Source of the DNA: Sulfurihydrogenibium subterraneum DSM 15120
GTDB lineage: Bacteria; Aquificota; Aquificia; Aquificales; Hydrogenothermaceae
DNA: 38,194 nt
Assembly (NCBI RefSeq): GCF_000619805.1
Contig: NZ_JHUV01000001.1
Span: 1-38,194, forward strand
Direction: 5' to 3'
Shown here: positions 12,289 through 38,194 of the stretch, one piece after another
Layout: each line of letters begins with the position of its first letter
Position numbering within the stretch: position 1 is the stretch's first letter
Program-made: the position numbers and the translations under genes
The notes under the pieces: generated by a model
Told to the model about the DNA's origin: nothing
What the model saw: only the letters and a program-made list of their open reading frames with translations
Database searches by the model: none

Positions 12289-12303
12289 TTAGGAGGATAA
12301 AGG

Positions 12304-12417
12304 ATGAAAGTGAAAGCTTCTGTAAAACCAAGATGTGAAAAGTGTAGAATAATAAGAAGGAACGGAAGAGTAATGGTGATATGTGAGAATCCAAAACATA
12401 AGCAAAAACAAGGCTAA
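12304..12417 (+). CDS. rpmJ: 50S ribosomal protein L36, zinc type
   Basis: This is a 37-residue frame starting [19 protein letters not shown]. Cys11, Cys14, Cys27 and His32 form the zinc site of the C+ type L36, and length and charge are exactly those of the family. AGGAGGATAAAGG precedes the ATG. It sits between infA and rpsM, the standard place. It is easily missed by length cut-offs. Confidence 0.96.
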
Positions 12418-12434
12418 AAAGGAGGCTGTAAAAT

Positions 12435-12785
12435 ATGGCACGTATTGCAGGCGTAGATTTACCAGATAGAAAAAGATTAGAGATTGCTCTTACTTACATA
12501 TACGGTATAGGTAAGACTAGAGCAAAAGAAATATTGGAAAAAACTGGAATAGACGGAATGAAGAGAGTTGGAGAGTTAACTCCCGAAGAACTTAATACAA
12601 TAAGAAAGTTTATAGAACAAAATTATAAAGTAGAAGGTGACCTCAGAAGAGAAGTTGCAGTTGCTATCAAGAGATTGGTTGATATGGGTTGTTATAGAGG
12701 TATTAGACATAGACTTGGTCTTCCAGTAAGAGGTCAAAGAACAAAAACAAATGCAAAAACAAGAAGAGGAAAAAGAAAAAAGTAA
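12435..12785 (+). CDS. rpsM: 30S ribosomal protein S13
   Basis: S13 in the 30S head contacts P-site tRNA and bridge B1. The 116-residue product has [20 protein letters not shown] with its helix-hairpin-helix ([11 protein letters not shown], about residues 25-35) and the basic C-terminal tail [20 protein letters not shown]. In E. coli, S4 represses this cistron through a pseudoknot. No comparable long leader exists here: the gap to rpmJ is 17 bases with AAGGAGG. Confidence 0.98.
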
Positions 12786-13211: not shown

Positions 13212-13826
13212 ATGGGTAGATATATAGGACCTTTAACAAAAGTAAGTAGAAGGTTAGGTGTATTTGTAGGTGGTGATATAGAATCTTTCCAAAAGAGAAA
13301 TTTTCCACCTGGACAACATGGAAGAACTCAAGGTAGAAAAAAGCTATCAGATTATGGAGTTAGATTACAAGAGAAACAAAAGTTAAAGTTTCTATATGGT
13401 GGTCTAAGAGAAGGTCAATTTAGAAGATACTTTGAGGAAGCATCTAAAAAAGCGGGTAACACAGGTGTAGTTTTATTGCAACTTTTAGAGAGAAGATTAG
13501 ATAATGTTGTATATAGATTAGGTTTTGCAAAAACAAGACAACAGGCAAGACAATTCGTAAAACATGGTCATTTTACTGTTAATGGAAAAAAAGTAGATAT
13601 TTCATCTTATAGGGTTGATGTTGGAGATATTATAGAAGTTAGAGAGAAAAGTAAAAAATTGTCTGTTTTTAAAGAGAATTTAGAAAGTAGAGACCCAAGA
13701 TCAGTCCCTAGGTGGCTTGAGTTGGATAAAGACAGTATGAGAGGTAAGGTTATAGAAATTCCGGAAGAAATAGAATTAGAGATTCCTGTTAATGTTCAGT
13801 ACATTATTGAGTTTTACTCTATGTAA
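13212..13826 (+). CDS. rpsD: 30S ribosomal protein S4
   Basis: S4 nucleates 30S assembly at the five-way junction of 16S rRNA and is a translational repressor in E. coli. The product is 204 residues. It has a basic N-terminal domain without the zinc cysteines of some S4 forms and an S4/Hsp15 RNA-binding domain (ERRLDNVVYRLGFAKTRQQA, ARQFVKHGHFTVNGKKVDI, about residues 88-130). AAGGAGG precedes the ATG. It is followed by an unusually GC-rich, foldable 109-base spacer before rpoA, the only sizeable gap in the alpha cluster, which makes S4 feedback on rpoA-rplQ an obvious hypothesis. Confidence 0.98.
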   Translation: MGRYIGPLTKVSRRLGVFVGGDIESFQKRNFPPGQHGRTQGRKKLSDYGVRLQEKQKLKFLYGGLREGQFRRYFEEASKKAGNTGVVLLQLLERRLDNVVYRLGFAKTRQQARQFVKHGHFTVNGKKVDISSYRVDVGDIIEVREKSKKLSVFKENLESRDPRSVPRWLELDKDSMRGKVIEIPEEIELEIPVNVQYIIEFYSM

Positions 13827-13836
13827 TAAGATTTTG

Positions 13837-13875
13837 AATGCTCCAAAACCGCCTGCCGGGGCAAGGAGCATTTTT
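13837..13875 (+). terminator. Terminator-like hairpin after rpsD (possible attenuator)
   Basis: AATGCTCC at 13837-13844 pairs perfectly with GGAGCATT at 13865-13872 (8 bp) around a 20-base loop, followed by TTTTT ending at 13875. It stands between two genes that are normally cotranscribed. The loop is complementary to downstream sequence, so it may be conditional rather than constitutive. The pairing is seen; the function is inferred. Confidence 0.55.
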
Positions 13876-13927
13876 ATGTAAAGGCGGTAATAAATACCCC
13901 GGTACCGGAAAAGTATCCGGTTAGGAG
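13837..13927 (+). promoter_or_regulatory. GC-rich structured RNA candidate in the rpoA leader
   Basis: In an AT-rich neighbourhood this spacer is strikingly G+C rich and self-complementary. The hairpin loop carries ACCGCCT (13848-13854), complementary to AGGCGGT (13882-13888), and TGCCGGGG (13854-13861), complementary with one G-U to CCCCGGTA (13897-13904). The order A-B-A'-B' means these pairings would be pseudoknotted. A third helix, ACCGG (13904-13908) with CCGGT (13917-13921) around AAAAGTAT, abuts the rpoA ribosome site AGGAG (13923-13927). It is compatible with an autoregulatory mRNA site or attenuator for rpoA-rplQ. I do not recognise a known riboswitch class. Confidence 0.6.
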
Positions 13928-13935
13928 TAGTAAAG

Positions 13936-14916
13936 ATGCCTTCTTTGTTAGATTTTGTTATGCCTTCAAAAATATACTGGGATGAATCAACTAAAACAGA
14001 AAATTTTGGTAAATTATACGTAGAACCGTTAGAAAGAGGTTATGGTATAACTCTTGGTAATGCTTTAAGAAGGGTTTTACTTTCTTCATTACCCGGTGGT
14101 GCTATAACAGCTGTTAAGATAGTTGGAGTACCCCACGAATTTACGACAATAAAAGGTGTAATAGAAGACGTAAGTGAAATTATTTTAAATTTAAAACAGA
14201 TCAGATTGAAAGTAGATGAAAATATAGAAAGAGACTTTGCTATATTAGAAGTTGAAGGACCTGGTAAAGTTTTTGCAAAGGATATTAAAGTTCCACCAGG
14301 AATCGAAGTAGTAAATTCTGATGAGTATATATGCACTCTTTCTGAAAATGTAAAACTTCAGATGGAACTTAGAATAGAAAGAGGAAGAGGATACAAAACG
14401 GTAGAAGAGTTAGAAGAGATAAACGAAATTGGTTGGATATTAATTGATACTTCTTTTTCTCCGATAAAAAGATGTACCTTTGCTGTAGAGCCTGTTAGAG
14501 TAGGAGATAAAACAGACTACGATAGACTTATCCTTGAAATAGAGACAGACGGAACGATTACTCCAGATGAAGCGTTAGAAAAGTCAGCAAACATATTGAT
14601 TGAACATTTCACACTACTACAAAAACCTACCGTAAGAAAGGCACAAGTTATAAAGAAAACTGTTGCACCAAAAACAGAAGAGTTAAAAATAGAAGAAGAC
14701 AAATTGTCCTTAGCAATAGATGAACTTGAAATATCTTCAAGGGCTATAAATACTTTAAGAAAACTTGGAATAAACACAATTGGAGATTTGGTAAAATTAT
14801 CAGAAGATGATTTAAAAGAGGCTAAAAGTATTGGAAGAAAGTCTTTAAAAGAGATAAAGGACGCTTTAGCAGACATGGGCTTAGAACTTGCACCATCTAA
14901 ATCAACAACAGAGTAA
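13936..14916 (+). CDS. rpoA: DNA-directed RNA polymerase alpha subunit
   Basis: Alpha dimerises to start RNA polymerase assembly and reads UP elements and activators. The 326-residue product has the N-terminal domain with EPLERGYGITLGNALRRVLL and SSLPGGAITAVKI (about residues 31-60), a charged linker near 230-255, and the C-terminal domain with two helix-hairpin-helix elements (RAINTLRKLGINTIGDLVKL and the following KSIGRKSLKEIKDAL). Its ribosome site AGGAG is 8 bases upstream and lies immediately after a small hairpin, so accessibility may be controlled. rplQ follows after 16 bases. Confidence 0.98.
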   Translation: MPSLLDFVMPSKIYWDESTKTENFGKLYVEPLERGYGITLGNALRRVLLSSLPGGAITAVKIVGVPHEFTTIKGVIEDVSEIILNLKQIRLKVDENIERDFAILEVEGPGKVFAKDIKVPPGIEVVNSDEYICTLSENVKLQMELRIERGRGYKTVEELEEINEIGWILIDTSFSPIKRCTFAVEPVRVGDKTDYDRLILEIETDGTITPDEALEKSANILIEHFTLLQKPTVRKAQVIKKTVAPKTEELKIEEDKLSLAIDELEISSRAINTLRKLGINTIGDLVKLSEDDLKEAKSIGRKSLKEIKDALADMGLELAPSKSTTE

Positions 14917-38092: not shown

Positions 38093-38194
38093 GTTTCAAT
38101 TCCTCATAGGCACGCTAAAAACGTACATGGAAAAATATCCTGACAAATACAAAAAGCGTTTCAATTCCTCATAGGCACGCTAAAAACCCTACAT
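38093..38194 (-). CRISPR. CRISPR array, leader-distal end (continues past the right edge)
   Basis: Two identical 30-base repeats lie at 38093-38122 and 38158-38187 (plus strand begins GTTTCAATTCCTCATAGG and ends GCTAAAAAC). They are separated by a 35-base spacer (38123-38157), and a second spacer begins at 38188. The reverse complement ends in ATTGAAAC, the common 8-base crRNA 5' handle of type I-B and type III systems, so transcription is probably on the minus strand, entering from beyond the right edge. No cas gene is in the window, so subtype is open. Confidence 0.93.

Follow-up and report, generated by a model that had tools for sequence, protein, structure and literature searches.

The RNA leader between rpsD and rpoA of Sulfurihydrogenibium subterraneum is probably a domesticated core of an IS607-type TnpB guide-RNA scaffold

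We found that the spacer between rpsD and rpoA in the window (the whole 38,194-nucleotide stretch of Sulfurihydrogenibium subterraneum DNA analyzed here) specifies a structured RNA. This RNA is probably the core of an IS607-type TnpB transposon's right-end guide-RNA scaffold (reRNA, or omegaRNA), domesticated as the 5' leader of the rpoA mRNA. The transposon origin of the leader is well supported by sequence comparison, and conservation of its structure suggests a function in cis. The window copy is a derivative of an IS607-type TnpB reRNA, not a member of that class.

The gene order at this locus is rpsM-rpsK-rpsD-(109 nt)-rpoA-rplQ. The spacer (positions 13827-13935) extends from the TAA stop codon (13824-13826) of rpsD, which encodes S4 and was assigned by Pfam, to the ATG at 13936 of rpoA (13936-14916; Pfam-confirmed), which the element leads. 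An earlier note on this DNA had described the spacer as the only sizeable one in the alpha cluster and as GC-rich in AT-rich DNA, and both observations held. A gap of 146 bases (12289-12434) contains a short ORF that is rpmJ-like by eye, which leaves the 109-base spacer as the sole large one. Its GC content is 0.45, compared with 0.33 window-wide (top 2% of 109-base stretches), and that of the core (13837-13921) is 0.49 (top 0.5%). A promoter scan found no consensus promoter upstream of the element.

The rpsD stop codon and rpoA lie on the + strand, as do the parts of the RNA itself. Hairpin P1 (13836-13844/13865-13873) bears in its loop the 5' strands of two pseudoknot helices, P2 (CCGCCT, 13849-13854, with AGGCGG, 13882-13887) and P3 (GCCGGGG, 13855-13861, with CCCCGGT, 13897-13903, including one G-U pair), so that the strand order P1 P2 P3 P1' P2' P3' forms an a-b-c-a'-b'-c' pseudoknot. 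An A-rich loop, TAATAAATA (13888-13896), separates the 3' strand of P2 from that of P3 and is kept as ..AAATA in both transposon and solo copies. Hairpin P4 (ACCGG/CCGGT, 13904-13908/13917-13921) sits where the transposon right end has its terminal hairpin. It is followed by a re-made Shine-Dalgarno (SD) sequence, AGGAG (13923-13927), 8 nt ahead of the rpoA ATG, where transposon copies end in CCAGG. The fold energy, computed without the pseudoknot, gave a z of -2.4. The last hairpin, abutting the rpoA ribosome site, is present as the earlier note described it; the two pairings of the loop with downstream blocks also stood, except that T13854 had been assigned to both and can serve only one. 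That note had further read P1 and a following T5 run as terminator-like. The hairpin exists, but the T5 run is replaced in relatives by TTCTTATA, TTAAAA, or CTAAAA, and a terminator scan found no intrinsic terminator on the + strand; thus, it is not a conserved terminator. A terminator or attenuator, which requires a GC hairpin and a conserved T-run, was rejected because the T-run fails.

The RNA structure at rpsD-rpoA is real, and its conservation is well beyond chance. The seven genomes of the genus all have the element at this site, as do both genomes of the sister genus (g7). In the other members of the family and order that we read, the rpsD-rpoA spacer is short or lacks the element; among the other Aquificota read, G068 (Aquificaceae; 1,500,577 bp) alone has a copy there, an independent one. 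The near outgroup G108 reads TAATAAAAGGAGGATTGATAAGAATG, an empty site. The earlier note had proposed looking for covariation in close relatives, where the helices proved to be both conserved and covarying. Among the nine rpoA leaders, P1 is maintained at 4 to 10 bp via double changes (for example, A-T in the window's own genome, G000, to G-C in G004; also TGCTCC/GGAGCA, TCCCC/GGGGG, and AGTCCC/GGGACT), and P3 occurs as GCCGGG/CCCGGT, GCTGGG/CCCAGC, and ACTGGG/CCCAGT. P2 varies in this set solely by A/G at one end, and the core loop is invariant. Among homologues, all seven P1 pairs vary on both sides, and P3 is also found as GCGGGGG/CCCCCGC and, in G146, as GCAGACC/GGTCTGC. P2 covaries in G068, from CCGCC/GGCGG to GCGCC/GGCGC and TAGCGCC/GGCGCTA, and reads CCGCTT/AAGCGG in G146. 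Across 69 distinct homologues, 92.9% of cells pair, versus 76.7% when shuffled and at most 52% with partners slid, and covariation is 0.400, versus 0.102 shuffled and at most 0.079 slid. The corresponding values for 34 G068 copies plus one own-genome copy are 95.3% and 0.370. Rfam searches of the window and homologues at gathering and permissive thresholds (4227 models, RAGATH-18 perhaps not among them) returned nothing at the element, in agreement with the earlier failure to recognize a known RNA family, and an identity with some unrelated known element was likewise not found.

The same core recurs elsewhere, the first homologue found being ahead of htpX in a different family. A pattern scan of GTDB genomes returned 39 stretches belonging to Aquificota, thermophilic Firmicutes, and Atribacteria, of which about 33 are real; the matches L081, L086, L089, L093, L108, and L109 were judged to be due to chance. 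Pattern scans of IMG/VR gave one real match, L073, and the others of the first scan were judged chance. L073 is a viral contig (IMGVR_UViG_3300022514_000030; 172,670 bp) that bears both tnpB and the guide-RNA scaffold and might move the element from host to host. A covariance model of the core (R1) matched 83 of 136 Aquificota genomes, with up to 35 copies apiece, and found 3 to 26 copies per Firmicutes genome searched, with repeated copies in Caldanaerobacter, Thermovorax, and Fervidicola; these counts include many related copies and do not represent independent events. Genes led by the core, most of them named by Pfam in G068 and by eye in other genomes, include hfq, rpsT, infC, htpX, acpP, metE, and trxB.

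Two genomes are especially rich in solo cores. G068 has 35 matches, and the 34 that were read (L143-L154, L220-L238) are all solo and lie 25 to 47 nt (median, 36) upstream of start codons, several with a perfect TATAAT immediately upstream. The genes that they lead comprise rpsT, rpsU, rpsR, rpsK, rplY, rpmF, infC, tsf, rho, rpoA, two hfq genes, metE, glyA, ilvC, ndk, ppa, nuoB, ftsH, and others. Two near-identical subfamilies among these cores suggest recent spread. G146 (an uncultured bacterium; MAG SRR5214706_bin.133) has 18 solo cores (L219, L296-L312), some of which lack P1 and consist of a minimal P2/P3 pseudoknot 12 to 16 nt ahead of the ATG; at some G146 genes the pseudoknot is present and an SD is not evident. 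A P1-less minimal core is also found in two species of the genus (L239:1391-1447, which is G000:C8:332390-332446, and L313:323-369 in G004), preceding an ATP-citrate-lyase-like gene (MAQRGIREYDGKR, by eye), with GCCGGAAT/ATTCCGGC as P3. No report of such leaders turned up in the PMC papers searched.

The link to transposons came from homologues that sit 3' of tnpB and extend to the transposon right end; the window copy has no adjacent tnpB. Fourteen Caldanaerobacter copies and one Thermoanaerobacter copy contain, in order, the end of the tnpB ORF, a longer RNA region, the core, the terminal hairpin, and GGTAACCAGG, at which the similarity among them ends. The transposon protein matches TIGR01765 and TIGR01766, i.e., TnpB, with Pfam Cas12f1-like_TNB under the cut-off, and it represents a lineage of about 500 aa with the TIGR01765 N-terminus. 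At L279, a serine recombinase (PF00239, resolvase) is encoded upstream of tnpB, which marks the element as IS607-type; a serine recombinase is absent near several other tnpB copies, including the one in the window's own genome. That genome has one intact IS607-type tnpB with a guide-RNA scaffold (L155:364-2026; G000:C10:86563-88225), inserted after AAAGGTGG and with its right end 8 nt ahead of the ATG of an iron-containing ADH-like gene. In full copies, the CTTGG loop of the 5' part of the scaffold (P0) can pair with the CCAGG end, a pairing read from sequence and outside the covariation count. None of tnpB, the scaffold 5' of P1 (P0), or the CCAGG end remains in the window copy, whose descent is therefore traced through the core and through intermediates elsewhere. 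Such forms include the G004 series, in which tnpB is intact in five copies and decayed in three (one of these ahead of rpsM) and the rpoA copy is solo. A riboswitch had been considered while only leaders were known and was demoted once tnpB-linked copies appeared. At L213 (G136:C6), a transposon copy ends immediately ahead of GATGAAACCCGGCAACC, a segment that is SAM-riboswitch-like by eye.

The right-end guide RNA of IS607 TnpB is RAGATH-18-derived (Ren et al. 2024, PMC11061315). The complete copies described here resemble it in lying 3' of an IS607-type tnpB, in being pseudoknotted, in following an AGGAG-like target motif, and in having a 5' loop able to pair with the 3' end beside the guide. 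They differ in the longer, ~500-aa TnpB and may differ in family, as the RNA gave no match in an Rfam model set that perhaps lacked RAGATH-18; the window copy differs further in being solo, without the 5' domain and guide boundary, and in its position as a 5' leader.

Flanking sequences indicate where these elements insert. The left-end flanks of nine copies read AGGAGG|TTAAAAACAGTTAACA or close variants (GGAGG-type ends), and the right end lies 2 to 9 nt ahead of a start codon in 9 of 14 Caldanaerobacter-type copies with a readable right flank (by eye). Thus, the element inserts between the SD and the start codon, its right end bringing CCAGG as a substitute. IS607 TnpB recognizes AGGAG as its target-adjacent motif (TAM) in 18 of 22 strains (PMC11061315). 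At rpoA, six relatives have an empty site, TAAGGAGG...ATG (also read as TAAGGAGGAA...ATG), and G068 has the filled site, TGACGGAGG|element...ATG. At the window locus, the left-end GGAGG is no longer recognizable. Automatic mapping of left and right ends at further tnpB loci mostly gave no result, because the tnpB ORF extends into the RNA and other subfamilies differ in their left ends.

These sequences indicate how the leader probably arose. The transposons insert just 3' of an SD used as the target-adjacent motif, and therefore frequently land between SD and start codon, with the right end providing a replacement SD. The distribution, empty sites, and remnant ends point to one insertion at rpoA in the common ancestor of the genus and its sister genus, after which tnpB was probably lost and the RNA core stayed. 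The RNA would then have been retained as a 5' leader in which the three-helix pseudoknot and P4 stand right upstream of the rebuilt AGGAG. That the structure persists in the absence of TnpB, in some copies as no more than a minimal pseudoknot, favors a role in cis. Its location at the 5' side of the mRNA, beside the initiation region, suggests that this role concerns the start of translation or the stability of the mRNA. Most likely, the leader would set translation initiation and/or shield the 5' side of the rpoA mRNA, and it would uncouple rpoA initiation from translation of upstream rpsD. Weighing against this explanation are the loss of P0 and of the CCAGG end from the window copy, the invariance of P2 within the rpoA set alone, the lack of an upstream consensus promoter, and the missing left-end GGAGG.

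We consider it unlikely that the RNA is instead a nonfunctional transposon right end that is decaying in the spacer and has merely escaped deletion. Other copies visibly decay, as the three tnpB remnants in G004 illustrate, and leader function is read from sequence comparison; however, nine of nine genomes in two genera keep the element, P1 and P3 show compensatory changes around an invariant core loop, many double changes hold the fold in G068 and G146, and P1-less cores retain the minimal pseudoknot.

It is very unlikely that the RNA still works as a guide RNA, with the start region of rpoA as its guide and the genome's TnpB, or a repressor resembling TnpB, binding it in trans. The own genome does encode an intact TnpB of this IS607-type family, loop sequences are common to transposon and solo copies, and TnpB-derived RNA-guided repressors (TldR) exist (PMC13418256). 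Yet solo cores remain in G003, G012, G090, G017, G088, and G146, in which TIGR01766 had no match, and the CCAGG end able to pair with the P0 loop is lost. In addition, the AGGAG of the window copy equals the published IS607 TAM and immediately precedes the sequence that would be the guide; the locus would thereby become its own target, which argues against continued guide function. G068 has no TnpB of this IS607-type family: its five TIGR01766 proteins belong to another group, and none adjoins a core. Two TnpB-like proteins of that group (L281, L283) read IYIG in the RuvC-II stretch, possibly without the usual Glu. TldRs, which are nuclease-dead, are alike in that parts of a TnpB transposon were domesticated for host gene control (PMC13418256), but a TldR and its guide act on DNA in trans, whereas here the RNA scaffold alone is kept, in cis.

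The reverse history, with ancestral leaders and a derived guide scaffold, in which a transposon captured an old cis-regulatory RNA or riboswitch, is highly improbable. It would accommodate the great diversity of led genes and the strong loop conservation, but the solo forms at L153 and L221 retain the transposon ends GGGTAACCAGG, the empty-site comparison at G068 rpoA demonstrates insertion, and a scaffold at the right end of tnpB is general for IS607 TnpB (PMC11061315).

If the leaders are functional, transposon guide-RNA scaffolds would provide structured 5' UTRs ready for use, and one genome, with 34 led genes (rpoA, infC, tsf, rho, and hfq among them), would have rewired many core-gene starts. 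These findings connect an orphan leader RNA with transposons whose nucleases are RNA-guided, and they show how a mobile element can spread without killing genes, by inserting after an SD and supplying a new one. IStrons (an IS plus a group I intron; PMC4227781) are comparable in that RNA carried by the IS can make insertion less harmful to a gene; unlike in IStrons, harm is avoided here by landing after the SD and carrying a new one. We give about an even chance to the broader proposal that thermophiles have repeatedly, and genome-wide, domesticated the scaffolds of SD-targeting IS607 TnpB transposons as leaders 5' of their essential genes, which would make up a shared, TnpB-independent layer of posttranscriptional control.

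In E. coli, S4 exerts control through a pseudoknotted mRNA, and the earlier note had proposed an S4-responsive or other attenuator of rpoA-rplQ. Such control by S4 or another ribosomal protein is scarcely credible despite the location right after rpsD, the one point that speaks for S4, and the pseudoknot fold, since this core also precedes many genes that have no relation to S4, has no conserved terminator, is missing from this spacer in most relatives, and derives from a TnpB guide-RNA scaffold; S4 control is not supported. The alpha-operon S4 leader (Alpha_RBS, RF00140) is likewise a pseudoknotted leader within the alpha operon, but it precedes rpsM and has another fold, and it was rejected as an identity for the element, where it has no match. 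A weak RF00140 match (23 bits against a cut-off of 38) spans the rpsM start at 12371-12467; we attribute it to rpsM coding similarity, its stem pairs being broken. Two CRISPR-DR2 repeats lie at the end of the window (38093-38187).
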